Assembly (NCBI RefSeq): GCF_000003815.2 | Contig: NC_049979.1 | Span: 16,737,933-16,801,932 of the forward strand | DNA: 64,000 nucleotides | Direction of reading: 5' to 3' | DNA from: Branchiostoma floridae | Lineage: Eukaryota; Chordata; Leptocardii; Amphioxiformes; Branchiostomatidae | Shown here: one piece after another, positions 4,216 through 50,946 of the stretch | Numbering within the stretch: position 1 is the first letter of the stretch | How the letters are laid out: each line of letters begins with the position of its first letter | Program-made: the position numbers and the translations under genes | Notes under the pieces: generated by a model | The model's input: only the letters and a program-made list of their open reading frames with translations | The model's database searches: none | What the model was told of the DNA's origin: nothing

Positions 4216-5584
4216 TTAATTGGTAGATGGAACGAGTGTAAGTGGTGTAGGTTTGGGGACCCCTATTGGCATGTTGGAACTGCAAGGACTGGTTTAGTTT
4301 CAGACTTTGAAAGGGAATAACTAAAAAAAGGTGTTGATGGATTTCTGGTTTGTAGACTGCTTAAGTGATGCTTCATATGGTTGAAGGTATGAGGTCGTGG
4401 AACTCTAGTTAATGAAACGTCATCCCACTCTCTGGTACTCAAGTAATCTTCGTAAACGTGACTGACACACCTCGTTCGGCTGCATTTTATACTTCGGATC
4501 GTATCCTTCTCCCCTGTAGAGGAACTGATCCTTAGCTTCATTATCTGTAAGCAACCAGCGCCTGGGGTGGGCTTGTTATTGAGATACGTCAGTAGGAGTT
4601 AGTGTCGCTCAACTTGACGCCCGAGCTACGGGAATTGTTTTCCCTCTGTTGTAATGCACATGACACTTTTTAGCAACTCATAAATCTGTGAAATGAAAAA
4701 AGTTTCTTGTTTTCTCCTGTATGAGAGACTTTTGTTAGGTGAAGTAGATCACATGGACGTGAAATGACCAGAAATAATGGGTAGATATGTCCCAAAACGC
4801 TTGAGACGTTTATCAACGTCTTCGTGTAATCCAAATATAGCCTAAATACAATCAACGTCTTCGTGTAATCCAAATATAGCCTAAATACATCATAGGGAAA
4901 TCAATCATCTTATGAAGCTATTCCACATCACACCACGATGTCCTTTTTCCGGGCTAATGGACAATGCTGCCTCTTGTTTCTTCTATCATTGCCAGCGAAG
5001 GAAACTAGCAAACTAGGTTAACATCATCGTCCCGCTTCAGTAAACGTTTAGTATCATAAATGTATTTTAATAATTAACAAGCTCTATGTGTGGCGGTAAT
5101 TATACTTTTCCAGTACTATAGAAAAGCACCATCCGTTAGCCGACATGATTGAGTGCCTGTTCCTTCTGCCTACAGACCTGAGCACGTCATTTCCTTCCCT
5201 CATAATTGCGCGGCACCATAGCTGCTGAGTGGGCGGCAGGGCAGGATTATGGCTTTCGGCACTGAGCGGGAATTCGGCTCCTACTTGTTCTGGTGAGTAA
5301 AGCTTGGTTTGTCCTCTAACATTCCAGAAAACACGCGCTCCTCTGTTAGGTCGATATTAGCCACATGGTGTCCGTCGAGGTCGATCAACGCCATCTGCCA
5401 CTTAGCGAATACGAAGGAGCATTCTGTACGAACAACTTAGCTTAAGTAGTTTACATTTTGACTTGGATTCAAGTTGATTTTGAAGAAACAAGCAGGGCCG
5501 CTTCATGGAGTTTGTTCTACTTCGAGACTAGTACTGTAAAGCGCAGATTGCAGCGGGAGTGGGAGGCCCCTTGCGTAGGCGGTG

Positions 5585-5905
5585 TACCGAAAGTGCGAAA
5601 AGGAACGAAAAGGAACGAAAAGGAGCGAAAAGGAACGAAAAGGAACGAAAAGGAACGAAAAGGAGCGAAAAGGAACGAAAAGGAGCGAAAAGGAACGAAA
5701 AGGAACGAAAAGGAAAGTACCGAAAGTGCGAAAAGGAACGAAAAGGAACGAAAAGGAAAGTACCGAAAGTGCGAAAAGGAACGAAAAGGAACGAAAAGAT
5801 TGGGTAGGAACGAAAAGGAACGAAAAGGAAAGTACCGAAAGTGCGAAAAGGAACGAAAAGGAACGAAGTATGAAGCAAAGTGAAATAAAATCGATGGGAA
5901 TATAA
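5585..5905 (+). repeat. GGAACGAAAA decamer array with recurring head motif
   Basis: Dozens of units of GGAACGAAAA or GGAGCGAAAA. The array is restarted four times by the head motif ACCGAAAGTGCG (5586, 5719, 5762, 5834). The tail GAAGTATGAAGCAAA...AATATAAGG matches, in reverse, the edge of the arrays at 6960-7330. Ten-base units without stops keep all frames open, so the Lys/Arg/Glu-rich and Phe/Ser-rich open frames here are not genes. Confidence 0.95.
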
Positions 5906-6120
5906 GGTAACGGTACTGTGATCGGCAATTGCATTTGAAACGGTCTTTATTTTTGCATTTTGTGGCTTGTTCCACGAAATTCCTAGAGCTCCAATGGTTC
6001 AACGGCGAACCGGCGGGAAAGTGCACGCGTGGAAATAGCTAAATACAAATCAAAGGCGATGGGCGGAGTCACGAATCAGTGAGTCCCGGGTTCCCACGCG
6101 GGCTGCCACAGATCAAATTC

Positions 6121-6136: not shown

Positions 6137-6960
6137 TTAGGTTGAGTATTGCGTCTGAAAAACGTTTGACGGGCTGACATTCTGGTGTAGATTATTTTTC
6201 TACGGTCCAAAAAATGTCACAAAGTCGTTTTCTAGTGCTCCCGGCCTAAATTATAAGTGGCCCAGGGCAATCGGGACACCGCGTTGATTTCAATTCGAGG
6301 CCTGGTTCCAAAGACTTTTTCTGCCGAACCCGCACGGGAGACGTGAGTCGCCCGCCAGATCTCTCCTTAGTTTCCTATCATCCTTTGCACAAATTCTTCA
6401 CGTTGGCCCTTTCTTCCCGCCAAAATGATTAATACTCATGATACAACGTGATGAAAACTCCTTGGTACAATGTATACATGTCTATCCTTTCACAGCTTTT
6501 CTTTTGTCGTGAACGAGCAAGAAGATATGTCTCCAGTTTCCAGAAAACCATGTTGTGGGCCTTGTTGAAGGGAGCTGTCATGCTCGTGGGGCAGCAGTTT
6601 ATTATTTAGCATATCATTCCAGACCGGATTTCTATTAGACGTAAACAATCGCAGGTCATTTGCATGCGGCGCTCCCATCTTGGGAGAGCAGAAGCCACCC
6701 AAATACAACAACAACGCTACAATCTTGCCTCATTCTGAAAATGTATATAAATCGATATTTATCCATCACCCACCAGTAACTGAATTTTAATCCTTACTTT
6801 CTTATCTCAGTTCTGTTTCCTTGTATTTCGCTGATCTTCAGAGAATAATTTAGCCACACAAACACAACAGCCTAAAACAGCGTCGTAAAAATTTGATATT
6901 GCCAAATTCTGAGTAAAATAAAACACGTTTCATAGGCTTCTAACGCCCGCAGTACCGGTC

Positions 6961-7323
6961 CCTTATATTCTCATTGATTTTATTTTAGTTTGCTTCATAC
7001 TTCGTTCCTTTTCGTTCCTTTTCGTTCCTTTTCGTTCCTTTTCGTTCCTTTTCGTTCCTTTTCGCACTTTCGGTAGACCCTGCGTAGGTATACTGTACAA
7101 ACGATTTATATACCACCTCATTGATTTTATTTTAGTTTGCTTCATACTTCGTTCCTTTTCGTTCCTTTTCGTTCCTTTTCGTTCCTTTTCGTTCCTTTTC
7201 GTTCCTTTTCGTTCCTTTTCGTTCCTTTTCGTTCCTTTTCGTTCCTTTTCGTTCCTTTTCGTTCCTTTTCGCACTTTCGGTAGACCCTGCGTAGGTATAC
7301 TGTACAAACGATTTATATACCAC
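6961..7323 (-). repeat. Two tandem copies of a unit carrying decamer arrays of 6 and 12 repeats
   Basis: Unit 1 (6971-7117) and unit 2 (7118-7323) share identical flanks: TCATTGATTTTATTTTAG, TTTGCTTCATAC on one side and GCACTTTCGGTAGACCC, TGCGTAGG, TATACTGTAC on the other. Between them are 6 and 12 perfect TTTTCGTTCC decamers respectively. This is the same family as 5585-5905 in the opposite orientation. Confidence 0.95.
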
Positions 7324-8246
7324 CGAGATCGAACCAAAGGTGTTGTTTGATGTTTGCCACCATTAGATGGTATGTGGGCGGCAATAATTGCTTAGAAAAG
7401 GGCGTTCTTATTGTCTGTACAGAAAAGCTCACAGGTATGACCACAGGGATGTTTCCTTAAAGGTTGTCGCCAACATAGTTCCCAAGGCGCGGTCCCAAGG
7501 CTTGTACTGTCCAACCAGTTTTACCCACAACTATCTGAGATCAAATTGAACGACTGTCTTTTCTTCATAAGTATGCAACCTCTGTGCCCTGGAATCACCG
7601 CGCTGTCCCATACCTTTGTCCGTTGTGAATACTAATGGTAGCGAATGCTCCATGGATATTCTTTACAGAAGATTAGTGCCACTTACCGGGAAGACTGCAG
7701 CTAAATAATTGTGCATAGGTCTACTTAAAGTAGATGAAAGTAAGAGCGTCATAATCGTGTTTGCCACACAAATGTCTTGCCAATTATTTTGCTAATTTTG
7801 TGCCTAAGTTGACCCATCAGGGGCTGTAGACTGCATGTAAACGCGTAGGGACTGTTGGTCCTTCGGACTGGAGTGCATGGATCAGAGAACTACAGATACT
7901 GTGCATAAACGAAACAAATCCCTGTATATCCACTGGCGGATTGTTCTAACCAAGGATCTTCAAACAGATCAAGAAGGAGACGGGAGGTCTACTGCCATAA
8001 ACCATCTGTATTACTTTGGGGACAGTTACGTTCAACGATCAGGGCAGTTGTGGTATTACCAATGTTAAAAGTTATTCGCCGTTCTGGTTTGTCCTTGTTT
8101 GGCCACTTGTTTGGCCGTTGCACCAACTGCTTCTGTTACACATGTTCCCCATGCTTACATGTGTAAAGCTATAACAGGATATCAGTTTTAGGAAACTATA
8201 ACAGAGCATCAGTTCTAGAAACACCCACAGTCCCACACACAACTTA

Positions 8247-9654: not shown

Positions 9655-10026
9655 CACGGCGGGGTTATACCCTTTCGCTGGCTAATTATAAGACGGGGAT
9701 GCGCCAGGTCTCCCGTCCGGGTGATTTGAAGTGAATCACCAACTCCAGACAGAAGGGTTTGCTCCATCTCACACCGCACCATCGCACGTGTGGGGGTTCT
9801 TTAACGTGCATAGGGTGTGACTCTCCCCATACACGAGACCTCCATTTAACGTCCTATCCGAGGGACGGCCCTAGCCGAAGCTAGGTACTCATTTTCACCT
9901 GAGTATAGTGAGGAAAGCAGTGTAAAGTGCTTTTCCCAAGGACACAAGATCGGTGACACGCAGTCGGATTTGAACCCGCGACCTCTCGGTCACGAGGCAC
10001 AAATGCCGCCGCTGCGCCACGCGACT
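9655..10026 (-). mobile_element. tRNA-derived SINE, copy 1 (minus strand)
   Basis: Read on the minus strand from about 10026, it begins with a tRNA-like head containing an A-box (TGGCGCAGCGGC) and a B-box (GGGTTCAAATCC). The body (CTCAGGTGAAAATGAGTAC, TAGCTTCGGCTAGG, CCGTCCCTCGGAT, AACCCCCACACGTGCGATGG) is shared with the plus-strand copy at 17041-17350. It is not an intact tRNA gene. Confidence 0.85.
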
Positions 10027-16515: not shown

Positions 16516-17014
16516 GGCGTATATGTTTGCGATTGGTAGATGTACGTCATAACAAAGGAGTGGTAAACATTTTGACGCTGGTTTCAGATAATACAGAGAT
16601 TGCTGGCCAAAGTTGAAACTATTGCCAGACGGTGGACCTATCAGTTTTCTGCTCCTACGTTAAGTCGACATATCTAACAATATTTTCATTTATGGTACTT
16701 TAATTGCTACATTTCGCTGTTTTTTGCTATGCATACATGATTTGTTATCGTACTGTATTTGATTTCTTATCGCAAATTTACTATTAGATGGCTTCATTTA
16801 TGATACAATAGTTGCTATATTTCCTTGTCGTTAATCATTTGATTGTTACTGATCTGTGATTTGTTATTTTTCGCTTCCTATTTCAATTATTTCAATAGAA
16901 TTGTGTTAAGTATTTGTTAGAAGGGGGCTTGAATAAGCCTAATAGGCCATATCATTCTCTCGCACGGTATTTCTATGTTATTTAACTTTTACTTTCTGCA
17001 ATTTCTTTTACGTC

Positions 17015-17042
17015 CACACACACACACACACACACACACACA
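17015..17042 (+). repeat. (CA)n microsatellite
   Basis: An alternating CA tract adjoining the SINE head at 17041. Confidence 0.9.
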
Positions 17043-17350
17043 GGGACCGCGTAGCGCAGAACCGGCTCGGGACCGAGAGGGTTCGAATCTGGCTGCCGTG
17101 CTACCAATCTTGTGCCCTTTGGAAAGGCAGACGACTATCCTCTCTTTACTCAGGTGAAAATGAGTACTTAGCTTCAGCTAGGACCGTCCCTCGGATTGGA
17201 CGTAAAATGGAGGTCCCGTATCTGGGGAGGGCCATACCCAGGCGCGTTGAAGAACCCCCACACGTGCGATGGTGCGGTGTTCGATGGTGCAAAATCCTTC
17301 CGTCTAGAATTGGTGATTCTCTACAAATCACTCGGACTCTAGGAAGAATA
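17041..17350 (+). mobile_element. tRNA-derived SINE, copy 2 (plus strand)
   Basis: The head has an A-box-like TAGCGCAGAACCGG and a B-box GGTTCGAATCTGG directly after a (CA)n run (17015-17042). The body matches the 9655-10026 element in the opposite orientation over about 300 bp, ending near GGTGATTCTCTACAAATCAC. Pol III promoter boxes identify the family; mobility today is not shown. Confidence 0.85.
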
Positions 17351-17399
17351 GTGACATAGCAGTCACTAATGGAGATCTGTATAACCAAACCAAACGTAG

Positions 17400-20300
17400 C
17401 TTTTGTGGAAATCTCTTCTTAGGATACGAAATGTGACTGCAGAATTAGAGGAAACCCAATGTCAAATCTATAGTAGACTTTTATACTATAATCTGCTGTT
17501 GACTACGCCTTAATGATTGCTTTCATGCTCACTCTTATTGCGATACGATCTTATTTTTGTGCTGTGAGCGCGCTCTTTGGGTAACTATCCGATTGTGGTC
17601 ATATGACATTTCTATCGGATTTTGAAGCCTTATGTATGTTTCCATTACTTCACTAATCCCAACCGTAATCAACATTATACAGTACATATATCAACGTCGA
17701 CGTCCACAGTAGGGAACTTGCAATGCCCTTGACACCCATACTTTAGGATTGCAGAGTCAAGGTAAACTAGACGTCTTGGTACTACTACTTTAAAGATAAA
17801 CTGCCAGGCAGCTGTCAAAAGAACTAATCAGGTCGTTGTGATGAAGATGCATCCACCTTGAAGTGAAATATAATCTACTTAGAAGTAGTTTTAATTACCG
17901 CCACGCTTTCGAACGTGGCCAAGCGGGAAATGAAAGCAGCCATCGCTGTCAGGACTTCGATCGCAGATGAGGAGATATGTAGCGCACTGTGGGAGTGTAA
18001 GCGGAACCTGATATGACTATCTTGGCCCCATTTTCTACTCTCGTGAGCAACACCGCCTCCGGTGTGCTCAAGATGGATGGTGACAAGGCCCTGGTGTGTA
18101 TGCTTTACCGTGGTAAGTGCAATATTCTCTGGGAATTTACTGCTCTTGGGATTTCACGCCTTATTTCCCAGCCGTGACGCTATGCAGTTTGGTGTGTTTT
18201 ATTCACAATCGAACTGTCAAGCCATCCCCTAAACTCTTTACTGCTATTCAATCTTAGGGAGGGAAGTTCCTGAAAAAAGGAAACAGTATGGTGTTTTCCG
18301 CCCCAAGAACTGCTGCAATCCAACAAAGGACCGCCTCTGAATCGAACAGGTGCAGTACAGATGCGCGTCGCAGTGGATAAGGTCGCTTCTACAAGGTAGA
18401 CATTTCTGGCACAGGTGCAAGAGCCGCGCGCAATTGTGTTTTCGTGCACAACATATCTAACCTTTGAGACCTTAATTATAACCTCATGATAACACTAAAA
18501 CAGACTTAGCTAGCAGACATGAGTCATGATAGTTCTTGCAATCCGAATACCATGTTCGTTCTTGTTTCTCGTTGTGACGCTTTCTTAAGTAAAACCCAGA
18601 TGTAGAGCATCAGCCTGGCAGACCGGGGAACGCCGGGACCGCGCCGAGAGGTCGTCTTTAGATACTGCACTTCCAGCAGGAAAAGGAATTTCCGCTGAAT
18701 AGTTACTAGCAGCAAAACGACAATGTGTAGCAAAGTTTTACCTCACTCAAGACGTTCCAGAAAATAGTAGGAGCTTTAGAAACTGTGTCTACGTGGCCAC
18801 ATCCATCTAACCTTTACCGGACGGTTTATCATCCTTACGTTCCACTTGTCCAGAGTCTTAAACTACACTCCACGCTTGAACCCACCGATAACCCGCACTG
18901 ATTGCTCTGGCGGGAGATATGCCCTAACCTTGCCTCTCAGGTCGTGCAGGGCCGCGGGCAACATACTGAGTGGGGGATTACTGCTCCAAGATGCCCCTTC
19001 AAGATTAATGAAGGTCAAGAACATGGCAATCTGGAAAGACTCTATCCAGAGCTCAATGAATACTAACTTTGTCTCATTACATGGGTGGTATGAATGGACA
19101 GATTGAGTAGCGTTAATTTTTCATTTTAATTTTCAACAAATATTGTCTCGTGTTGTACTCGAGATCGTCTTAATGTAAGTTAATCATCCCTTACTCATAG
19201 CTATAGCACTGAGGTTGAGAAATGAATCTAAAATTAAGTAACATCCAATATTCTTTTATTCCGGTTAATCAGAACACATAGTATGAATAGATGATACAAC
19301 TATCCAAGCACTTGAAGTTTTGTACGGATGTCTCTTCCCTAGTGGACCACATAGCTAAAATGTTCGAACAGATCTTTCCGCTATTTTACAGAGCTTTGCT
19401 AATCTCGTCATCCAGTGTCCCTAATGTTCCTTCTCTTTTGCGTTCTTCCTCACAATATGTGCTTAGTCCACGTCACACCGTTTCTGCTATAACCGCTGCT
19501 TCATTAGTTTTCCACATCTACAAAGTTTTATATCGGTCTCAAGAGCTTAAGATTTAAGGTCTCGTCTCAATGAGAAAGCTCCATCCTTGATTGCCTACGT
19601 CATTGACAATCCTGTGCTGCCTTCCCCTGAGTCCTAGGTGAGTTACAGAGTACTCCCACCCAAGTCATTTAGAGGTCATGAGAAATAGCCATCTCAGTGA
19701 ACATCCCTGGTGACTCCACGTACATTGAATGTCAATTCCACGCACGATTACGAATGACGTTTGCGGTAGCGAAGTACTCTCTAAATTTCCGGGTAATCCT
19801 AATGCTATACAGAAAAACGCCGATAAATCACAATGACAGGCTTGGGGTATATTCGGGACATATAAGTAATATCACAACCTGAACCACTGTCTCGATATGC
19901 TTGAAGGCAAGATAATAATGATAGGCATAGTTCGGCATTATGTACCAACAAGAAATATGTACTTTCATGCACTTAAGTAAGCATGACAACTAAATACTTT
20001 TTTTCAATCGTGTAGATGTATAGAAACAACTTACGCATTTTCGGCGTGGTAAGGACTACGTCTTTCTTTTCCGTGTCGATGCACAGAGGTGAAAGTGATG
20101 AAGCGTGTTTTGTAGTGTGTACAACGTGCGAACTGATCATGAATTGACCCAGCCAGTGTTTCAATCCGAAACAGGGTAAATAACAATCACCCAAGGAGCT
20201 GACTTTGAGAAACTGTCTGGTGAATTCTGTAAGTAGGCGAGTTTTAGACATCTGACGGATTGCCCCACAACCACTCTCAGTGTTAAAAGCATGACTCTTG

Positions 20301-20400
20301 ATCCTGGTAATGGGTTAGCGTCTCGTGATACTGTGTGTCATGTGCTGACAGGAAAAGCTCGTTGTGCACGACACTCACGTTTTACTGTGGTCCTAGTCTC
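17400..20400. other. No gene recognised
   Basis: Only short unrelated open frames; no splice-linked coding chain found. Confidence 0.55.
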
Positions 20401-20404
20401 GGCG

Positions 20405-20990
20405 ATGTACCAGGGCCAGGTAAACAGTGTGGTAGTCCCTGTCCTTGGTGCTGAACACCATCACTTGAACATTGTCGCTTAAACCTTCACGTGAACAGCG
20501 TTGTAGTCCCTGTCCTTGGTGCTGAACACCATCACTTGAACATTGTCGCTTAAACCTTCACGTGAACAGCATCGTAGTCCCTGTCCTTGGTGCTGAACAC
20601 CATCACTTGAACATTGTCGCTAAAACCGTCACGTGAACAGTGTCGTAGTCCCTGTCCTTGGTGCTGAACACCATCACTTGAACATTGTCGCTTAAACTTT
20701 CACGTGAACAGCGTCGTAGTCCCTGTCCGTGGTGCTGAACACCACGACATGAACGGTGCGGTAGTCCCCGTTCCTGGTGCTAAACACCATCATACGAACA
20801 GTGCAGTAGTCCTGTCCATGGTGCAGAACACCATCACGTGAACAGTGTGGTGGTCCCCGTCCTTAGTGCTGAACACCATCACACAACCAGTGTGGTGGTC
20901 CCTGTCCATGGTGCTGAACACAATCACGTGAACAGTGCGATAGTCCCCGTTCATGGTCCTTAACACCATCATGGGAACACTTTGATAGGT
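20405..20990 (+). repeat. Minisatellite alternating 71-bp and 45-bp units
   Basis: GTAGTCCCTGTCC-like starts occur at 20432, 20503, 20574, 20645 and 20716 (71-bp spacing), then 20761, 20806 and about 20850 (about 45-bp spacing), all sharing GGTGCTGAACACCATCAC. The short unit lacks the TTGAACATTGTCGCTTAAAC insert. An 80-residue open frame on the minus strand is only the repeat translated. Confidence 0.93.
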
Positions 20991-21116
20991 GAAGTTACCA
21001 TCACCTGATACTAAAAGGGCACTGTTATACAACGGTCTTGTTTGATTAATAGATTCATGTTCTGAACACTAAGTCTGCTCGTAAGTGTCTCTTCAGTCAA
21101 GGTTTAGAGAGAATCT

Positions 21117-22649
21117 TCAGTACTTGCAGACCAGAACGTCCTTCAGTGTTTTCCTAAATGTCTTGTTGCAAAAGGCATAGCACCAAGGGTTGATTGTGCT
21201 GTTGACGTAGCACAGCCAGTACCCTACGTCCCAGACTATCTGTGGCACTTCACAAAATGGTTTAAATAGCACAGTCACACTATATGGTAACCAGGTAATG
21301 ACAAAAGCTAAGAGAATGGCACTCAACATTCGTAGAGCCTTACTCGTTCTCAGCAAGTTGGCAAAACTTCCATTTCTCCTTCCCCTTCTGCCCTTGCTGT
21401 AGTGAGCATTCATTCTGGTGAGTGGAGCGCCACGCCTGCGTCTGGTGTCCCCCGGTGAAGGAGCCCGGGTGTTTGGGTCATCTATGATCTCTGTTGCCGG
21501 CATTTTGGCCTTCTTACCCATGCTTCCATCTTTTGATATTTTAGTGATGATGTTGTACTTCTTCAGTCTTGAAGCGTGCTTTGTGGGTTTCTCGGTGACA
21601 ATGTGTTTCGTTTTGGGATCTGCCTTGGTGGGTATGCTATCAGGGCTCTCCAGTGACGATTCATCGTCCTTATATGATGCTTTTCTTGAGATGGAAGGAC
21701 GTTCATCTCCTTTTCCACTAGGGTCTACAGCGTCGTGCGCCTTAGCCTGGTGGCGATGTCCTTCGGATAGCTTTGCCGAAGACGTTAGCGAAGTATTCGA
21801 TCGGGATGTTGTAAACTTGCTACTTGCTTGCAACACAGAAAGGTTTTTCTGTCTCTCCTGCGTCTCCCTGTAGATCCTGTAGTACAGAGTACACATGATA
21901 ATGACCGGGATGTAAAAAGCCACTGCTATGGTTAAATAGTTCACGTAAACACTGTCCTCTATAAACTGGATGTAGCACTGGCCCTCCGGTACGTTCCTAC
22001 CGCCCACGATGTACTGCCAGCCCACGATGAGCGGTGCCCACACCAGCACCGACGTCACCCAGGCCAAGGCGATCAGACAGGCGGCCCGCCTGGGGGTTCT
22101 CTTGGCGCGGTACGTCAGCGGACGGGTGATGGAGAAGTAGCGGTCAAAACTGATCACGCACAAGTTCATGACGGAGGCGTTGGAACTCACATAGTCCACG
22201 GTCAAGTACAGGTCACAGATCGCCGGTCCTAAGGCCCACCTGCCCATCACCATATACACGGTGTACAAGTTCATGGACAAGAGTCCGATCAGGGTGTCGG
22301 CCACCGCCAGACTCAGCAGGAAGTAGTTATTGACGGTGTGAAGTTGTCGGTTGACTCGGAAGGACACGAAGACCAGAATGTTTCCTCCGACGGTGATGAT
22401 ACTGAGAGAACAGGTGAGCAGACATATCAGCACCACCTCCCAAACCTGGTGTCCTCCCAGGGGGTCTAAGGGCGGTGCCGTGGTCACGTTACATTCCGGC
22501 GGGAGGGTAGTGCTCTCGTTGCCGCAGATCACCAAGTGGTCGCCCGGTGTTGGCCATTCTGAGACAGCCATCCCGTTGCTGAAGTCACCATCTGTGACAT
22601 TTGTCCCAAATGTCGGCTCTAAGGTGGTTGCATTGCCCTGAAACTCCAT
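21117..22649 (-). CDS. Muscarinic-type acetylcholine receptor-like GPCR, copy A (intronless)
   Basis: Complete 510-residue rhodopsin-class GPCR on one exon, starting at an ATG (22649-22647). The N-terminus (about 1-66) has four N-glycosylation sequons (N6, N17, N44, N54) and no signal peptide, as is usual for this family. Seven membrane spans follow. The TM3 segment DYVSSNASVMNL, the DRYFSITRPL motif after it and the GYWLCYVNSTINP segment in TM7 are hallmarks of muscarinic receptors. Ligand-contact residues D152 (3.32), Y153, N157, W453 (6.48), Y456 (6.51) and Y477 (7.39) are present, but position 6.52 is Ser457 where muscarinic receptors have Asn. Intracellular loop 3 is long (about 271-438) and basic; the C-tail is very short (ends LVCKY). 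Likely role: plasma-membrane G-protein-coupled amine receptor. Acetylcholine is the family-based guess, but the pocket change leaves the ligand open. It is the inverted partner of the receptor at 27317-29173. Confidence 0.93.
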   Translation of the reverse strand: MEFQGNATTLEPTFGTNVTDGDFSNGMAVSEWPTPGDHLVICGNESTTLPPECNVTTAPPLDPLGGHQVWEVVLICLLTCSLSIITVGGNILVFVSFRVNRQLHTVNNYFLLSLAVADTLIGLLSMNLYTVYMVMGRWALGPAICDLYLTVDYVSSNASVMNLCVISFDRYFSITRPLTYRAKRTPRRAACLIALAWVTSVLVWAPLIVGWQYIVGGRNVPEGQCYIQFIEDSVYVNYLTIAVAFYIPVIIMCTLYYRIYRETQERQKNLSVLQASSKFTTSRSNTSLTSSAKLSEGHRHQAKAHDAVDPSGKGDERPSISRKASYKDDESSLESPDSIPTKADPKTKHIVTEKPTKHASRLKKYNIITKISKDGSMGKKAKMPATEIIDDPNTRAPSPGDTRRRRGAPLTRMNAHYSKGRRGRRNGSFANLLRTSKALRMLSAILLAFVITWLPYSVTVLFKPFCEVPQIVWDVGYWLCYVNSTINPWCYAFCNKTFRKTLKDVLVCKY

Positions 22650-22659
22650 CCTGTCCGGC

Positions 22660-25600
22660 TCGTCCCGTGAATATAAGAGGTGCTTCGTCGGAGGGCCCTA
22701 TGCCATATATGCAGTCTTTTCGACGAGTCGGCTATGTAAAACTACACACCACTTTCCATTGCTGAGACTCACTGACTGTTGTCTACGGGAAAGTGGACGC
22801 CAGAGCGGGGATGTGCGACATATTTACCTCAAGACTACATTGTCAATGACATTAAAATCCAGAGCAACCCAGTTACTATCAATAATTGATGTGATTTCTG
22901 TTGAAGATGTTCCCTGGTTGGCAAACGTTAATCAAATAAAAGTTCCACTGGAAGTGTTCTTCTATTTGCTGACGCAGATGACGTTCCCTAGGGGAGGGCT
23001 GAGTCTGTCCGTGGCTCCGAAAGTTAGGGATCTTTCTTGCCCATCGGGAACAAGCTATAGCTAGTCTTTCATTTATTACGTCTCAGACTGCATACAAAGG
23101 TTAAAGGACATGAAAGAGAGGACGTGAATGGTGCCCATACTGATACATCCAGCCGGTGATGGGTTCCCTGAGGCAGGGACTCGCCAGAACACAAACATCC
23201 CTCCTCCCCGGGTTTAGTTATTAGCAATCTCGGTGTGCACGTCACTGGTTTTCTCCAAATCCATGTCCGTGTGGGGAACTGTCATTCGTATGTCCTTCCC
23301 TGTTGGGATAAAGGCGTAACTGCTTTATAGTTTCTGTTGTACAAATAATATCAACATGACGCATGGCTTCAACCATCATATGTGACAGGTAACGAGGTAT
23401 TCTGTGTTTGACTGACTTATTACATCACCTAATTCTGGTCTCGGTTGGTTCATGGATGCACAACAGCGGCATACACGTAGTTACATTCCATCCTCAAACA
23501 ACCGTTGTAAGGAAATGTAACGTCAAAGGCAAGTATCTCTGATCAAATAAATTGAGAGTATCAACTATCAAGGGCTGCAAAAACATTATGACAATATAAC
23601 GTTCTCGAAAGATATTCAAAGGTTACAGTTACGCTACAATTCCAAAGAAAGCCGACAGGCGACTGGAATTTGAAGAAATTCTTGACCCATTCTTCCTTTG
23701 ACTACCTTTTGATATAGCCTGTTAGCACAATGTATGTATTACTTCTAAAGCTGTGCTGGTAAACACGAGCAGACAAAAATATAATATTCTTGGTGGACGT
23801 AAGCACAAACATACCTGAGCTGTACAAACTGCTTTAAAACTCTTGCGGTCTGCGGTTCTGACTCACACTATCACTGCGCGGTGAGAGCGGAGGCTGCAGA
23901 CATCCATGGGCGGTGGACAGGAGGTCTATGCTACTCTTCAACGCTCCAGTGTGACACTGAAACCCGCTAGAAAAGACGTTGTGCCAGAAAATGGCCCTCC
24001 AGACAAAACTGATGGCCTGTATAATGGAACAATCTTACTCCGACTGGGGATGAAGAACAGTCGACTAAATGTACCAAGTTGTTTGAGATCACACGCTGTG
24101 ATGATAAAAGGCAATTTGAATGGAGTTTTGCTTTTGCTCGACATCCTGTGCCCTCGGGACGCGTGCTCGGCCACAACCTTTGCTCTAAAAGCGCTACCCT
24201 TTCTCTAAGTGATCGGAGAAGCTTTCCGCTATCGATCTTGTGCCAAGTCACACTCTTTGTTAAAGCCGCAGCCCCTCGGGGCAGTGGGAGTTCCAAGTCT
24301 AACGTACAGCGTGCCTTTGCCACGTGCGTCAGCCGGGACGTCAACGCTGACGCCGTCCCTGCGGGGGTTTCTAGTGCTTTTATTTCCGCAGAGATTTGTT
24401 GGCTGCCTTAATTCTTACATGTAGCTTTCGTGTCAAGACTTTCACGTGAGAATGGAAATCTACCGACCTTCACTGAGACCCCAGGGTAGATATGAAAGTA
24501 TACGAATATCACGACAAAGGAGGGATACTGAGTGCGGGACACTGGGATGTCTATGGTAATATTTTAGGGGTCTGTGACAACGCTCCGGGGCCTAAACAAT
24601 CGCAATAACAAAACGTTTCAAGCAAACATTTCAAGTCAAATGTAAATAAACATTTGACATGGCAATCCAGTACAGTAGCCCAAAACTTTTGAGTGGCTCT
24701 TAGAGCCTTGTTCTGTGGTGTATCTGATGTAAATAATACCCCCACCCATCCCTGTGCCCATCCGGTATCCACCCTTCTGATCATTTCCTCATTAAACACG
24801 GGAGGTCATACTTTATAGCCTTTGTATACCTGGACGGTACAATAAAGAGCTTGTTCTAATGGATATGTGGCGTTCAACATGCGTTTACTTGCAATAGAAT
24901 AACGTTTCGCTAGCTGGCGTATTGAAATTACTATTACCCCAAGGATGTAACGATTAAACAAGCATACAGCCGCAGCATGTCGACTTTGTATGAAAGTATG
25001 TTTATTTTATCACTGCCTTAACAAAACAAACATTGCTGTAGAGATGGGAACTACAGTTTCTACAACCCAAATAGTAATATGCTTCCAATTATTCTGTAAA
25101 TTCGCCAAGAAATGAATATCATAAAGTCACGGAAAGGCATTAGTAAAATTAGTCACTTCCCAAGAGTATTCGTTCATAGTCTGTCGAGTAGTTATGTTAC
25201 AATATCTAGGGGGCAATTTCGAGCTCCAATCATCAGCAAGAACTATGGAGACTTAAGGTGGTAGCTCACTGCACCTGGGGCACCGGTGCGGCACTGCGGG
25301 GTTCAAAGATACTCAACGAATGATTTCAAGAGATCGGAGAAAATAGCAAAGCAGTGCCGTAGTGAACGAACCCCTCAGTGCCGCACCGGTGCCTCAAGTG
25401 CAGTGAGATACCACCTTTACATACTCAAGTTTATGTTGCACGTATCATGACTTTATGTCAGCACCCATCTCTGGATATTGTAGATGAGCTAATACTAAAA
25501 GCGTTAATGGAAAACTTCGCGTGCCACCGATCCCCACTGGACACACAACGTCTCAATACGAAATTTTGGCCTATCAGAATACGTATGCTGGTGAGGTATG

Positions 25601-27300
25601 TAGAATTTCTGAATCGTTATTCCGCCTGAGGCGTAGTTTCTGCAGCCTTCGATGTAACATGTCGTTATTGAACAGGAAAAGTCGCACGCAAAACAGTCTG
25701 ACGAAACGACTACATACCGAGCGGTCACCACACCCGAAGAAGCGCAAAGATATCACATTGTTTATCGTTCTGGAGCTACGGGTAAACCAAGGTGGGGCAA
25801 ATCGGAGCAACCAGGGACTTAGGACTTATAATTACGTGCCGGATACAACTGACAAGAGATTACCCACAGGACACACAGAGCTAACGGCCAACCTTAGGTC
25901 TCACTTCTACACAACTGGTCAGCTCCACAACTCTGCTGTGAACGGCCGCAGGCCGGTGTGTATTTTGTGATAAGCATCCTACGTTTACCTGACGTCACGA
26001 TGACGCGTGCAACAGAAAAACACTATTCATCTGCGTCAGAGTTAAGTTATGACATTGGATTGGTAAAAACAAGGCCACGACCCTTCAGTTCATCGCCAAT
26101 ATTGTCAGAGAGTGCAATGTTTTCAAAAATGATAGTGAAAACATTATCATACATTTATTTTTCTCTACAAATGTTTGTTACCAGATTATAAATGGACATC
26201 TGATCTGAGAGTGCCGGTTTACATAGATGTGTCCGTCAGCAAACCACCATTAGCGTAAGACTGACACCACGCGCAAGAAGTTTCGACCAGCACACAAATC
26301 GCTCTATATGCTGTACAGGCAGTCACGTCGGTTCGCAATCTATTCCCGCAGAGTGTATTATTTGCATATCTCAGCACTATGTACATGTCTCTTTCCACCA
26401 GATGACGATCAGCCCCAAGGCGAAATTAAACCCATAAGTCATTCCAACGTAAAGAGTGCAGATGTCGCCTTGTACAAGATCACACGGCAACCTAATTGAT
26501 TTTGGTAAAATTCAATGGCACGAAAATAACGGCGTTGCATTTAAGAACAATGTCATTACATCCTAATGAAATAAGACCTAACCGTAGAACCACGTCTGCC
26601 ACTATCTGTGACTGTTATTCTTCTTTATCTGTTTTGTGCATCGTGTTTGTCACGTTATCTTGCACGTAGTGCATTACTTGAACAAACGCGCCTATACAGA
26701 TGTTTGTATGTACATAACATGTGCTCTACACGGCATACCATAATGAGAATAGACTTTGATCCTCAGGTAGGTTATATATGAATTTATGTTGCACTTTCTG
26801 ACACAATAATCATACAAAGCGTTGACTTAACGTCAGAAAAGGATGGCAATGGTGGCGAAAATTCCATCAGCTCCCTGGCTGTCGCCCACTTATTACCTCA
26901 TTCCTGTAGTATTTGCACGTCGCCACTTCATTTGCTCACCATCAGATTGTTTGCAGTGGACCATAGAGATGGCACACGGCCTTTGTTCCCCGGCCAAACA
27001 TGTACACAATACTTAACAGGCGGGGAGGCCTTGATGGATGTTGTGGGTGGGGGTTCCGGACTGGAGTCTCTTGCACTTTGTTGACCCCATTAAAAGTACA
27101 TTTCTGCCAGAAGTAAATATCCTGCAGTGTTTCTAGCTGTTGAAAACTTGATATTGAACATTTCATGAAAGGAAGTCGGTGAAAGGAGTAATTTGTAGGA
27201 CGACCTTTTAGTTTAGTGGACTTTTGTTCCGTCCGTTGCCACGTGACTAGCTCTAACAGGTTGTCATTCTGTCGTTCCCGTTCCAGGATGGAGTATTGAC
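22660..27300. other. Intergenic interval between the divergent receptors
   Basis: 4.7 kb without a supported gene. Contains the inverted-repeat element at 25256-25416. It must hold the promoters of both receptors, but no specific motif was secure. Confidence 0.6.
25256..25416. mobile_element. MITE with TTA target duplication (PIF/Harbinger-like)
   Basis: About 40-bp imperfect terminal inverted repeats beginning AGGTGGTA.CTCACTGCAC, flanked on both sides by TTA. A 3-bp TTA/TAA duplication is typical of PIF/Harbinger elements. 161 bp, non-coding. Confidence 0.8.
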
Positions 27301-27316
27301 ATGACGGCCAGGTAAG

Positions 27317-29173
27317 ATGGCGTTCCCGACGATCCCGCCGCCTGGCCCGGACTACACCACTCCGCTGTACGGGACAGAGGTCGTACCCGTGGTATATGAC
27401 GCCGTGAACGGGACGCCTGTGTGGTCTACTTCCGGAACTTATAACATATCTTGTGGTAACGAGAACGCTACTCTATTACCGGAATGCAACGTGACCACGG
27501 CACCGCCCTTAGACCCCCTGGGAGGACACCAGGTTTGGGAGGTGGTGCTGATATGTCTGCTCACCTGTTCTCTCAGTATCATCACCGTCGGAGGAAACAT
27601 TCTGGTCTTCGTGTCCTTCCGAGTCAACCGACAACTTCACACCGTCAATAACTACTTCTTGCTGAGTCTGGCGGTGGCCGACACCCTGATCGGACTCTTG
27701 TCCATGAACTTGTACACCGTGTATATGGTGATGGGCAGGTGGGCCTTAGGACCGGCGATCTGTGACCTGTACTTGACCGTGGACTATGTGAGTTCCAACG
27801 CCTCCGTCATGAACTTGTGCGTGATCAGTTTTGACCGCTACTTCTCCATCACCCGTCCGCTGACGTACCGCGCCAAGAGGACCCCCAGGCGGGCCGCCTG
27901 TCTGATCGCCTTGGCCTGGGTGACGTCGGTGCTGGTGTGGGCACCGCTCATCGTGGGCTGGCAGTACATCGTGGGCGGGAGGAACGTACCGGAGGGCCAG
28001 TGCTACATCCAGTTTATAGAGGACAGTGTTTACGTGAACTATTTAACCATAGCAGTGGCCTTTTACATCCCGGTCATTATCATGTGTACTCTGTACTACA
28101 GGATCTACAGGGAGACGCAGGAGAGACAGAAAAACCTACTAGAACTACAAGGAAACACAAGTACCAGAACATCGACACGATTCCGAAACACATCAACTAT
28201 GTCAACTACATCATTCCTAACAAACTCTACAATCAAATCTACATTGTCCACATCTACTATCAAGTCTACTACAAGTGTCGGCTCTAGTATGTCCAGAGAG
28301 CCTATTGCACTTAGCAGTATAGAGGAAGGATCAACCACCAGCAGTACACCCAGAAGTAAGCGTTTCTCCTCACTTTGTAAATGTTGTGTCGGAAAGTCTA
28401 GCGAAGATAACGACTCAGCTAGAGATCTCAGTAACTTCAGCACACCGACTGACCACGCCAAGGTTCTGATGAGTGCTGGTTCTAGTTCGTTTGTAGACAA
28501 GAAGGCAGGACCGGCCCTGGAGATGAGACATGTGTCTCTGTCCGTCCCCAATGGGAAAGCACATCGCATGACACCGCCCAAGACCGAGCACCCTGCCTCC
28601 AGGTACCGCATCGTTATCAAGCTGCCCGACGAATCGTCCACGGACCCTGAGGACCAGAAGACGACAATAACAATGACTCCGGATTCAGATGATTCGGACG
28701 ACAATCTAGAGCTGAAGGAGATGACGCCATCCCCACGCCCGAGCCCTGAGCCGCCAGTCAGGCCTCGGCCATCTGCAGCATCACTTTCAGCGTCACGGCC
28801 AAAGCTAAACGCGGCACAGTTGTGGAAAAAAGCTGCCGAAAACACTACACGGACTAAATTAAAAAGCGACCGTGCTAGAAAAATCTCAATGGTTCTGAAG
28901 GAAAAGAAGGCAGCAAAGATGCTGAGTGCTATCCTCTTGGCGTTTATAATTACGTGGTTGCCATACAGTGTAACGGTACTGTTCAAGCCCTTCTATAAGG
29001 TTCCACCGACCGTCTGGGATGTGGGGTACTGGTTGTGTTACGTGAACAGCACCATCAACCCGTGGTGCTACGCGCTTTGTAACAGAACGTTCAGAAAAAC
29101 GTTTAAGGACATCCTGGTGTGCCGGGTAAAGAAGCAGACCTTCAGACAACTGCAAAGCAAAAGACTGTACTAA
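27317..29173 (+). CDS. Muscarinic-type acetylcholine receptor-like GPCR, copy B (intronless)
   Basis: Complete 618-residue GPCR on one exon; the ATG at 27317 lies in the context aagATGG. From PECNVTT (about residue 56) through the QERQKNL segment at the start of intracellular loop 3 it is identical in protein to copy A, including D156 (3.32) and the DRY motif. The N-terminus, a longer Ser/Thr-rich loop 3 (about 275-530, with STSTIKST-like repeats, acidic stretches and Pro/Arg patches), TM6-TM7 and the C-tail differ. TM6 carries W547 and Y550, with Ser551 at 6.52 instead of the muscarinic Asn. The KEKKAAKMLSAILLAF segment before TM6 matches the muscarinic consensus. The extracellular loop 3 CxxC pair of vertebrate muscarinic receptors is absent (FYKVPPTVW). 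The different loop 3 suggests different desensitisation or G-protein coupling from copy A. Start codons of A and B are about 4.7 kb apart, divergently oriented. Confidence 0.93.
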   Translation: MAFPTIPPPGPDYTTPLYGTEVVPVVYDAVNGTPVWSTSGTYNISCGNENATLLPECNVTTAPPLDPLGGHQVWEVVLICLLTCSLSIITVGGNILVFVSFRVNRQLHTVNNYFLLSLAVADTLIGLLSMNLYTVYMVMGRWALGPAICDLYLTVDYVSSNASVMNLCVISFDRYFSITRPLTYRAKRTPRRAACLIALAWVTSVLVWAPLIVGWQYIVGGRNVPEGQCYIQFIEDSVYVNYLTIAVAFYIPVIIMCTLYYRIYRETQERQKNLLELQGNTSTRTSTRFRNTSTMSTTSFLTNSTIKSTLSTSTIKSTTSVGSSMSREPIALSSIEEGSTTSSTPRSKRFSSLCKCCVGKSSEDNDSARDLSNFSTPTDHAKVLMSAGSSSFVDKKAGPALEMRHVSLSVPNGKAHRMTPPKTEHPASRYRIVIKLPDESSTDPEDQKTTITMTPDSDDSDDNLELKEMTPSPRPSPEPPVRPRPSAASLSASRPKLNAAQLWKKAAENTTRTKLKSDRARKISMVLKEKKAAKMLSAILLAFIITWLPYSVTVLFKPFYKVPPTVWDVGYWLCYVNSTINPWCYALCNRTFRKTFKDILVCRVKKQTFRQLQSKRLY

Positions 29174-29601
29174 ACGCACGTGGGTAAGACAGTTCTGATT
29201 TTAACGACACTCACATAACAGGAACAATGTCAATATTTAACTTCACTGTTGTGGATGACGTAAACATACAACGGGCAGGTGACATTTCACAAAAATGATG
29301 AAGGATTGAATCAGCTGTAAGATGAACATGTGGACTGCACGTTTGAGGTATTATTATCCAGTGTGTTTTCAGACTGTCTGTGTAACTGTGTCACGGTGTA
29401 TCCCATCTGTCTGCGCCATACTGGCGTCCATCAACAAACATTTAGTCAGTAGTGTTTGTATTTACAATGTTGTGGGACAGAATCTCAGCGTCTTGTCGTA
29501 CGAAAGCTGTCTAAATAACGATCAGGTGTCCGAAAGTAATTTTATCAGGTTGGTAGAATATAGGATACTGAAGATTTCATTTACACGGCCAGTAAATACT
29601 C

Positions 29602-29607
29602 AATAAA
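29602..29607 (+). terminator. Putative polyadenylation signal of receptor B
   Basis: An AATAAA hexamer lies about 430 bp after the stop codon of the receptor at 27317-29173 and is the first one downstream in the right orientation. It would give a short 3' UTR. It is a motif match only. Confidence 0.4.
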
Positions 29608-29609
29608 TT

Positions 29610-31930
29610 TAAACGTAAGCAAGTGAGTATTTACTTGTTTAAAAGAAATATTCAATACCTTGTTAAATATTCATGTAAACTAATGAAACGTTTACAGTCT
29701 CTACATATTCAGTCGCTCTGTGGGTCTGTGGGCGACCCGGTAAATAGGTATCTGACAGGTGGCCGCCATGTTGGGAAGAACAAATAGTGTCCAGAAGTGT
29801 CAAGTCACCGCAACAATACGTCACTGATAAATGCGGAGAGAATATCTGGCATTCTACACAGTAGTGTCATATAGCAACCACTCACCTGGCGGTTGTCTGT
29901 CAGATCTTTCAACAACACTATAGCACCATAAAGTCAAATCACAGATGACCTTTCTGATAGGTTTCACTATGAGCCGTTATTCAGAGTGGAGCCTCGTGTT
30001 TGCACCCATAATAGGCTAGAGTTGATCTAGTATTCTGATTGAAGTGGAGACACTTTATAATATCAATAGTATGGTCATGTTCGTGTGTACCAGGCAGATA
30101 TAACAGGACTGTTAAAACCGTGACATGCCGTTTCTGTCAGAACAGCACAAACAGAGTACACTTTACAACTCGTCTGGTTTACCTGCTGTTTCCATTACGC
30201 TAGTGGCAAACGTAAAGCAGGTTAGAAGGGTTGAAATAATCAGTGTAGCATTTGTAAGTAGTAACGACTAAGGATACTACTCTCCTTGCAACCAACGAAC
30301 GTCGTTCTGTACATATTCTATGTAATCAGGACTGTCTCTGGCAGGACCCATCCCTCCGTCCCAGGACAGAGTGATATTTTGTAGGGACGGAGACACATGT
30401 CACCCGTCCGCCCCAAAAGTCTGACCTTCATGACATGAAATCAATGAAACATAAGAAGCTCATTTGACAACAGAAAACAACAACATGGGCTCCCAAACAA
30501 TGAAAATTATGGAAAAACCTGGAGACAGCCCTGACATAGACACAAGAGACCAGTTATCAACCTCTTGCCCTTTGTGAACAAACGTGACTATCATATTTGT
30601 AGTTGAGATAGCGTGATTATTTGGACAGGAACGAGTTTTTAAACTGCCCACTCTAGAACATTAACGTATTTGTATGTAATATATTTGTAAGGTACACGGA
30701 GATAAGAGACTAGATAACCATCAAAGCCTTAAACACAAATTTGAGAGTGTGTTCTACAAGGAAGTTAGCTGTTACATTTTAGAAAAGACGGAAGCCTGGT
30801 AGACAGATTTCCTATACATACATTCAGTCTACTCTCAACAGATTTAACTAATACGGAGGAACTGCTAATACAGCTAATACTAATAGGCTCGTTGTTCACA
30901 AGACTCGCAGGTGCGTTATTTGGAGCTGTTCTGTGGAGCATAGTGATGGCGATATGCTGTTATCTGCAGTGACGACGGGGACCACCCAAAACTGGTCGTG
31001 ACCTTTTAACCTTTGTCACCAATGGTGCATGTAGAGAGCACGCTTTGGGCGTTCTCTCAAGGTGAACAAACATGTTTGCTCAATGTCACACATGCTTTTA
31101 GGACGTCACTGGTGCCGTCTCATGTACAGACAGGTTTTGTTGTACCGTGGTTTGTATATAAATGAGTATAGTAGCTCGGCACAGATCCTCTCATATGGTG
31201 CGGTATTGCACACAAAGGCAGGGTAGGTAAGAGCACAAAGTCCACGTCATTTGTCATTGTGTGGCTGGGGCAGCTTTAATACAACAGACTAATCATAAGC
31301 AAATAAATTAAACTTCCTTAACACTAGATTTTCTCTTCAGGGCAGACTCGTATATGTAATAACAAGGCTGCTACTACTGCAATACTGTGTCCATTTTTCC
31401 TCCTCGTCTATATCTTGTACCAATTAGCATTAAACGTTTGGTTAACCCTCATTTTAAGATTTGATGTAGATGAATACTTTTCAGTTGTTTCTGTTTACAG
31501 CTATACCTACCCCCAGTATCTCACGGATCTCAATCAAAATCCTGCCGTTACTTCACGGAAAGAAAATGAGCATTCCAGGTTTGAGGTTCTAATTCTATTT
31601 TCACATATTCATAGATTTGTTGACAACAACTAATGGTGGTATTAGGTGGCCACCATCACGTGTAACGGGGGATACCAATGACAAATTTAAAAAAAAAAGC
31701 CGAAGAATTGATCAACTATGAAGTTTGTGAATTTTTCATCTCAGTCAGTCAGGATATTTAGTACAGATCTCCGTTCAAAGGATATTCCACAAAACCGAGA
31801 TCAAACCACTGTTGGTTTAATACAGAAACGGTAAGCCGAAAGATAAAACCTGTATCCTACTTTCAGTTTAAATCACAACATAAACAGGTTAAGACCGTAA
31901 AAACATCCCACAATCCACCTTCAACGTCCT
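29610..31930. other. No gene recognised
   Basis: AT-rich intergenic DNA after receptor B. No coding exon chain. Confidence 0.55.
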
Positions 31931-31933
31931 TTC

Positions 31934-32180
31934 AGGTGCAATCTCACTACACTTGCGTCAAGCTTGTATCAGTGCGGGGTTCGTTCACTGCGTCACTGTT
32001 TTGTTATTTTCTCAGATTTGTTTATAATTTAGATATTGCGTAATATGTACCCGTATGACTTAGAAGAAGACAAAATACACAAAAAGTAAGAAAATTCATT
32101 CTTTATCTCTGACATTTGTTGAGCATAATTCGAACCACACAGTGACACAAGCTTGACGCAAGTGCAGTGAGAGGGCACCT
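31934..32180. mobile_element. Related longer MITE of the 25256 family
   Basis: Terminal inverted repeats AGGTGC...CTCACT.CACTTGCG, CAAGCTTG matching each other over about 40 bp and related to those at 25256. The internal GTGCGGGGTTCGTTCACT also resembles the 25256 interior. Target duplication is imperfect (TTC/TTA). Confidence 0.7.
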
Positions 32181-32184
32181 TTAA

Positions 32185-34450
32185 CGACGGACGGTCATTA
32201 AAACATGAACCGTCTACATTTTGAATGCCGATATTGACCTGCTCACTCAGATATGACAGCCAATGACAATAACGTCGTGTCCTCATAGCTAGCTCACGTT
32301 AAGTAATGCATGGAAACGTGTGCCCTGAAGAGAAGTCATCCGCACATCAATGTCATTCATTGTGTTTTACGGAGACATACAGGTGCCCTAGGCCCTGTAT
32401 CGTGCTCTGTGGCAGAATAAGTTCTACCAGAGCCGTCTCCTTGTAGAAGGAACTGTATATCTCCAGGGCTGTGAGTCAGTATTTCTTTTATTACTGGGAA
32501 TTGAAGAAGTCCTTATCTTTTCTCCAAACCACATCTGCAATTTGCTCTTAGAAAAAATATATACTTATTGACCCCAGGGGATAAGAAACTCACTATCGGC
32601 ATATCTTATAAATAGGATGTCTCATTTCAGAAGTGGGTTATGGCTGTTAGGTATATTTTCCTGGACCCGAAAAGGCGTAGGATCCGAATCGGTCTTTTTC
32701 AAGACAAGGCACTCACCGCCTGATAAGACGTAACGAGAAATCGATCCATATATACGGCTGTCCTTGAGGAGTAGGTCGTAATCTTAAGCACTGGTTGAGT
32801 TTGTGGGCTGCCAGGAGCGGTACCAGCCTGTGTTTTACATAACGATCTGCCCTACTTTTACAACAAAAAGCTTTACAAAGTACCATCTGGCTTCTCTAAA
32901 GCACCACACACAAATTCCCAAGTATATGTTCCTTTCAATACAAAGCTAACAACGAAATTAACTCAAGAGATGGGTGGTTGGGATAACGGGCTCATTTGTT
33001 CACAGGCATTAAACCATTTGACTGCACGGGCGTCAGAAAGTCCATTTGTATTCTTCATTGAGATCTTTTGAAAGTCTAGTAAATTATCCCTCTTTGCCTA
33101 CGATGAACAATGGTAGTTATAATGTGTATGGCTAGCTTTTCTACGTTCTGTACTGTTTGTGAGTTTCAGTCAATCGGTGCTTCGTGACAGGAACAATTAA
33201 GACCAAAGCTAGGACAAAGAAGGCGTCTTGAATGACGTGTGCGTGGTCAATAAAGATCCGCCCGCCTCGCCCTGATGGTACCGGTAACACATGTTTCTAC
33301 AGTCACATGTATAGGCTGGCCTAATGTTTCCTGTATGGAAGAGACACAAAGTTTCGATCCCCCAGTAATTCGGCTCGCCTATTTACTTAAAGTCCTTTCT
33401 TAAGTTGACTGGCTGATGAATGTCTGGGCGACTGCCTGGAGGGACTATGGGGAAATGAAGGGAATCGATAGAAGCAGAACATATATGTGTCTAGTGGATC
33501 GGAATGTGGGGCTGTTTATATGAGGTTTATGAGCTTTTACTAAGCCCTCGTACAGTCAAACACACATACACAAACACACACACACACACACAAACACAAA
33601 CACACACATGTGTATTATGTACATAAAGAGATTTAGAATTGCAGAGTGCCAGTTACACAGACGTAGGGACCGAACCATAGCCTCAGCCGGAACATTGTTA
33701 ATATAGCGAGGTACGGGTGATGAAGAAGTGCAGGTGGTAACATCTTAAGGGTCACAAAATGATTTGCTTGACAAAATGGGTAGAAAAAAGGCAGGTAAAC
33801 AAAGAAAATGTCTACTTGATCTTCAACAAATTGATCAACATAATGGATAAATACACGTTGTTTTCTGAACTATTTATGTTAAACAGAAATAAATCTCTTC
33901 ACTTCCCTAAATGTTGTCAACAGACAATTAAGTGTCTTTGTGCTCTGTGACGATGTATATATACAACTATAACTATGACATGTACCTGTACAGATGTTTG
34001 TATGTACCGTAAGTCCGTGGTTCGATGTATAACGTGTTAGAAAACAAGGCAGGATCCTTACAAAAGACCACAGTTGTACATAGTAGATGTGTATATTTAC
34101 CCCCTTGTGTGGCATAGCTGGCTTTGCTGTACGTACTGAAGGGCTGGACTATGGTGTATATGTATTATGGAAAGTGGAGTAATGGCCTTGACTATTGAGT
34201 ATGTATATGAATAAATCACTGTGTAGAACTTTCAGTTGTCGCTGCTCTTTTAATTCCATTGGAAATTTTCCTGCGAGTTGAATGGTTATACACCATACAA
34301 TTATAACAAGTTTTCGTATCTACGATAACTACATACAAAACATCAAATAATTTCTTCGTTATAAGCTTGAAGTACATCTATACTATGCCGTATGTTCATA
34401 AAATAACGACGTTGGAGACTATGTCGAAGGAGCTGTGTAATCTCTAGTTG
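32185..34450. other. No gene recognised; CA-rich microsatellite inside
   Basis: Only a CA/CAAACA-rich tract at about 33560-33610 stands out. Confidence 0.55.
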
Positions 34451-50397: not shown

Positions 50398-50946
50398 GTT
50401 TTACTTCAAGTAGTAACGCCAACGTTACTAGAAAGTCTAAACTCTTCGACCAAACTATCCAGAGACTTCGAGGTTACGTTCACTGAGCAAATCCATTCGA
50501 ATCGCTCAGTGACGAATTTGTCGCCCGGTTCAGGGAATAATCTNNNNNNNNNNNNNNNNNNNNNNNNNNNNNNNNNNNNNNNNNNNNNNNNNNNNNNNNN
50601 NNNNNNNNNNNNNNNNNNNNNNNNNNNNNNNNNNNNNNNNNNNTCTAATAACCATGCACTGTAAGTTCCCCAAATAGAAGTACAACGCTATTCGACAACA
50701 GACGATTCAAATCTTCTGTGGGCTCAAAGCCTTGGACTATACCATTAAGGTTACGGCAATGGTTCTGATGCAAAACATTTAATGGAGCCAACACGAAATA
50801 GCTACTGTTTGATATTCGTGAAAGACACTCTTTTGATACGAAATTACTTGAGGTATTATAAAGGGATTTATTTAAAGCGTGATATTCCAGTTTATGTCAG
50901 TAAATCATAGCACCCCCAGGTCACAATAGATCCACCCGCCGGTAAG
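50398..50946. promoter_or_regulatory. Candidate bidirectional promoter between the SDR and lipase genes
   Basis: About 550 bp separate the SDR start codon (50397, minus) from the proposed lipase start codon (50947, plus). The interval includes a 100-N assembly gap (50544-50643), so its real length is unknown. No TATA box is obvious next to either start. The short divergent spacing is the evidence; shared regulation is inferred. Confidence 0.4.
50544..50643. other. Assembly gap (100 N)
   Basis: Exactly 100 N, a conventional length for a gap of unknown size, between the SDR and lipase genes. Confidence 0.98.

Follow-up and report, generated by a model that had tools for sequence, protein, structure and literature searches.

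We analysed a window of 64,000 nucleotides from Branchiostoma floridae (contig NC_049979.1), in which two receptor genes, here called A and B, lie as neighbours on opposite strands, head-to-head and pointing apart over a spacer of 4,667 bases (Table 1). Both genes match the Pfam family 7tm_1 (E = 5.1e-67 for gene A and 1e-62 for gene B) and both have muscarinic M3 as their best PDB match (E = 2.9e-114 and 1.3e-118, respectively). All 31 PDB matches of gene A with E ≤ 1e-60 bear muscarinic names, as do the best 31 of the 60 listed matches of gene B (277 in total), and in each gene the class A seven-helix domain is closest to M1–M5. Searching the window with both proteins by tblastn returned genes A and B only, with no third receptor copy, and a viral_contigs scan for relatives gave six pattern matches, none of which was confirmed. 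For B. floridae, a single clear muscarinic receptor is listed in PMC2246102, the pair is not mentioned in the available part of PMC6298421, and our literature search found no report of gene conversion between muscarinic acetylcholine receptor paralogues.

Table 1. Coordinates within the window of the two receptor genes and of the parts that were compared
Feature	Position	Strand	Remarks
Receptor gene A	21117-22649	-	Single open frame, 510 aa, class A GPCR, muscarinic-like
Loop 3, TM6-TM7 and tail of gene A, taken as unconverted	21117-21842	-	
Putative conversion tract, gene A copy	21843-22490	-	End of N-terminus, TM1-TM5 and start of loop 3; maximum-likelihood borders
N-terminal codons of gene A, taken as unconverted (flanking control)	22491-22649	-	75/153 aligned bases differ from 27317-27487
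Spacer with the 5' flanks of A and B	22650-27316	.	Its halves have one 13-base match (E ≤ 1)
Receptor gene B	27317-29173	+	Single open frame, 618 aa, class A GPCR, muscarinic-like
N-terminal codons of gene B, taken as unconverted (flanking control)	27317-27487	+	Same comparison as for gene A
Putative conversion tract, gene B copy	27488-28135	+	Pairs with the gene A copy as reverse complement
Loop 3, TM6-TM7 and tail of gene B, taken as unconverted	28136-29173	+	

A Pfam scan of seven frames in the window identified the two receptors, a guanylate-binding-protein domain, the N-terminus of a hormone-sensitive lipase and an LRR-Ig protein, a set consistent with animal DNA, with two frames left without a match. 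Several repeats were also observed. A degenerate tandem array with a spacing of ~71 bases and its multiples (20417–20979) lies directly downstream of gene A, and an inverted match between 9715–9996 and 17066–17337 (284 columns, 81% identity) is perhaps a dispersed repeat. Low-complexity arrays at 5446–6038 and 6922–7391 contain long open frames of the KRNEKERKGT type on both strands. Near the lipase-like frame, an inverted repeat of ~67 bases (54644–54710 and 54892–54957; 98.5%) flanks a gap of 100 Ns at 54792–54891 and is possibly an assembly error.

Alignment to M3 revealed two substitutions common to the receptors: in TM5, Ile replaces Ala after Thr (21927–21929 on the minus strand in gene A and 28049–28051 on the plus strand in gene B), and in the 'TPYN' motif of TM6, Ser replaces Asn (21279–21281, minus, and 28967–28969, plus). 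Neither receptor thus keeps the full classical orthosteric pocket of M1/M3. We take the two sites to be pocket positions 5.43 and 6.52, presumably the same two that are altered in the tick mAChR-B. That receptor carries A193I and N382H (M1 numbering), which have been linked to weaker atropine binding (PMC13022164). Judged by their residues, receptors A and B may have an unusual pharmacology.

The two genes are joined by a single inverted BLASTN match (21841–22526 with 28137–27452), in which 672 of 686 positions are identical. We located the near-identical block with a two-rate likelihood model, which covered all aligned codons, scored any base change as a difference and considered blocks of at least 20 codons. 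The optimal low-divergence block comprises gene A codons 54–269 (22490–21843), falling exactly on the sharp gene A borders claimed by an earlier note on this DNA, and the model is far better than a single uniform rate (log-likelihood −161 versus −351). Solutions within two log units place the start at codon 51, 54 or 55 and the end at codon 268 or 269, and diverged homologous sequence is found on either side, as expected of a conversion tract. Inside these borders, the two copies differ at only 4 of 648 bases (21918, 21999, 22098 and 22319), all four differences being synonymous, while a fifth difference (22491/27487) is the first base beyond the tract. The earlier count of about five differences in roughly 650 bp, none changing the protein, therefore holds as four plus the adjacent base, but the partner segment in gene B, given there as 27483–28137, has to be corrected to that in Table 1. 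Expressed in codons, 4/216 differ within the tract, together with 0/216 residues and 2/105 four-fold sites, and dS is 0.026 (NG86; the interval for four events is 0.007–0.066). Because four of four differences are synonymous, an outcome with a neutral probability of 0.003, the tract protein has probably been under purifying selection since the conversion.

The block is also longer than chance would produce given the overall divergence of the pair, a property expected of an interlocus conversion tract. Among the 339 codons at which both genes encode the same residue, 72 differ, and the longest stretch without any difference spans 72 codons; when the 72 differing codons were shuffled over the 339 positions 10,000 times, the longest run was 47 and no permutation reached the observed length.

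Outside the tract, A and B are old duplicates. At the N-terminus, the residue is changed in 31 of 51 aligned codons and 9 of 20 same-residue codons differ. In loop 3, 125 of 166 residues are replaced, with a dS of 2.5 (NG86) or 1.6 (YN00), and the alignment there has little meaning. In TM6–TM7, where the proteins are again similar (13/74 residues replaced), differences are seen at 57/222 aligned bases, 33/61 same-residue codons and 18/24 four-fold sites; dS is 1.10 (YN00), and NG86 returned no value (−1) both here and for the N-terminus, which we took as saturation. Fisher tests of the tract versus TM6–TM7, which assume independent codons, gave P ~1e-21 for same-residue codons, ~5e-15 for four-fold sites and ~8e-9 for replacements. 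These results bear out the previous description of N-terminal codons that often differ, an unrelated loop 3 and a TM6–TM7 segment with many synonymous differences in a similar protein. Uniform synonymous divergence along the genes, for which a base-by-base check had been proposed, is excluded, with 4/216 codons differing inside the tract versus 33/61 in TM6–TM7.

Based on the divergence of TM6–TM7, the duplication is old. A recent duplication of the whole locus was considered and rejected because TM6–TM7 is diverged and because the spacer halves and the 3' flanks have only short, chance-like matches; the 3' flanks (17001–21116 and 29174–33300, 4.1 kb each) match each other over no more than 24 and 18 bases. 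This agrees with the earlier argument that a simple recent duplication does not account for the pair.

Protein constraint likewise fails to explain the contrast, because TM1–TM5 and TM6–TM7 are equally conserved relative to M3. In counts taken from sections of the M3 alignments, identity to the PDB M3 chain 8e9z_A is 130/204 columns in TM1–TM5 and 43/70 (A) or 45/70 (B) in TM6–TM7, two of the latter columns being gaps. Long-term constraint is therefore alike for the two segments. Between A and B, in contrast, 204/204 residues agree in TM1–TM5 and 59/69 in TM6–TM7. Equal constraint combined with unequal identity within the pair points to a recent, pair-specific cause of the TM1–TM5 identity. 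Recent interlocus gene conversion between A and B appears to be the best explanation of the block, and we assign it a probability of roughly 85%. The block, its borders, the divergence contrast and the equal constraint together support the earlier proposal of conversion between inverted copies.

The first alternative is an assembly artefact, in which sequence from only one of the genes, either reads or a haplotype, ended up at both loci and the animal itself would lack the identity. The assembly of the window is imperfect, with N runs at 50544–50643, 52431–53073 and 54792–54891, and highly heterozygous genomes are hard to assemble, the genome-wide heterozygosity of sequenced amphioxus being 3.2–4.2% (PMC12500494). 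However, the tract lies 22.4 kb away from the closest N, the two copies can be told apart at four to five sites, the flanks are wholly different, the tract borders coincide with the loss of homology between A and B, and both reading frames stay open. We therefore consider an artefact improbable, and the misassembled allele that the earlier note had set against its own reading is, on the same grounds, less likely.

Base composition bears both on a second alternative and on the direction of conversion. Without Met and Trp codons, GC3 in the tract is 157/206 (0.76) in A and 160/206 (0.78) in B, which exceeds all other parts of either gene (0.46–0.68): TM6–TM7 with the tail (36/70 in A and 56/84 in B), loop 3 (79/163 and 114/247) and the N-terminus (31/50 and 34/55). 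With Met and Trp included, the tract values are 0.77 (A) and 0.79 (B), compared with 0.67 for the top 216-codon block of the LRR-Ig gene in the window. The A tract is elevated over its own TM6–TM7 (Fisher P = 1.5e-4), and the B tract is elevated over the N-terminus (P = 0.023) and loop 3 (P = 5e-12) of B; against its own TM6–TM7, the B tract gives P = 0.055, or 0.15 on aligned codons. High tract GC3 would be expected from GC-biased repair, and we regard it as no more than suggestive of GC-biased conversion. It would also be expected from an outside donor, namely a third paralogue at another genomic locus that converted both A and B. This would require two events where one suffices, the tblastn search uncovered no such copy within the 64-kb window, and the GC3 of the B tract is not significantly above that of B TM6–TM7, so we view a third paralogue as quite improbable. 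For conversion directly between A and B, the GC3 contrast leans to B as donor, because the A tract stands out more from its own TM6–TM7. A codon-usage likelihood also leans from B to A, although not significantly (label-swap P = 0.22; 10% of 2,000 bootstraps were opposite), and either gene may have been the donor.

Finally, extreme nucleotide constraint on the TM1–TM5 segment, for example from an RNA or enhancer element embedded in the coding sequence, would fit the all-synonymous differences and the fairly good fold of one of four 101-base border segments compared with shuffles (z = −1.48; 10/200 as good or better), but it is very improbable indeed, as it would have to switch on and off at exactly codons 54 and 269 across 105 four-fold sites and be missing from the equally conserved TM6–TM7, and the remaining three segments fold like shuffles (z = 0.33, −0.06 and −0.46).

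Conversion is further favoured because the block takes up the whole of the well-matched stretch that separates the diverged N-terminus from the unrelated loop 3. As a mechanism, we propose that the diverged head-to-head paralogues exchanged sequence without crossing over, such that one copy replaced an island of ~650 bases in the other, reaching from the end of the N-terminus through TM1–TM5. The likely route would be ectopic conversion between inverted copies, with either two chromatids (sister or homologous) paired or a single chromatid folded back on itself. Conversion would proceed through pairable sequence and end at the diverged N-terminus on one side and at loop 3 on the other, with TM6–TM7 shielded by a loop that cannot pair, ~500 bases long in A and ~770 in B. 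Conversion tracts are reported to span a few hundred bp and rarely >1 kb in mammals, and to average 518 bp in Drosophila (PMC3961182), while for meiotic non-crossovers in B. floridae most reported tracts are <200 bp (PMC12500494). Because ~650 bases exceeds the typical B. floridae tract, the block would require either more than one event or a repair tract of greater length. Amphioxus non-crossovers also display evidence of GC bias, although maternal multi-SNP events are AT-biased (PMC12500494).

The conversion was probably recent. Within the tract, 0.6% of bases differ between A and B, which, like the dS given above, is on the scale of an allele pair or less when compared with amphioxus heterozygosity. 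By this measure the event would be young on a population scale, and it may be polymorphic. We give no date in years because a literature search found no value for the amphioxus de novo mutation rate.

Conversion of this sort is already known in other receptor pairs, and A and B are probably a further case. The closest known case is the chemokine receptor pair CCR2/CCR5 of mammals, likewise neighbouring class A GPCR paralogues with converted patches and a diverged remainder. In bats, patches have been overwritten in several lineages, and the events could be traced with 18 species; the converted regions are identical in Miniopterus natalensis, and the CCR5 tract of Rhinolophoidea extends from residue 66 to 191, starting in part of TM1 (PMC8877049). 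Unlike CCR2/CCR5, genes A and B are muscarinic-like and inverted head-to-head, their tract covers TM1–TM5 and they are described from one genome only. Amphioxus also has a paralogous gene region at the VCBP locus (PMC2632668), which, unlike A and B, contains immune-type genes.

With regard to the inverted layout, the pair resembles human HsInv0241, where the near-identical inverted paralogues AQP12A and AQP12B serve as substrate and recombination in the repeat exchanges their first exons (PMC3961182). HsInv0241 demonstrates inversion by crossover, whereas A and B indicate conversion only and a flip is a prediction. A crossover within the tract would be predicted to swap the promoters or 5' flanks and the N-termini between the receptor bodies. 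The tract might even act as a standing recombination switch, in which crossing over between the inverted arms of 650 bases flips the intervening ~5 kb with both 5' flanks and both N-termini, but we think this unlikely. If it were true, the signalling bodies (loop 3, TM6–TM7 and tail) would trade expression patterns, both orientations would segregate in the population and conversion would keep the arms alike. The inverted layout makes such an inversion polymorphism directly testable.

The outcome of the proposed conversion would be two receptors with a common TM1–TM5 half and distinct N-termini, third loops and tails. Conversion of this kind would mask the age of duplicates, since TM1–TM5 alone suggests a recent duplication and TM6–TM7 an old one, and whole-gene GPCR trees and clocks would be misled by it. 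The pair may thus be seen as a natural domain swap, in which one half of the receptor is kept the same while the signalling loops diverge.
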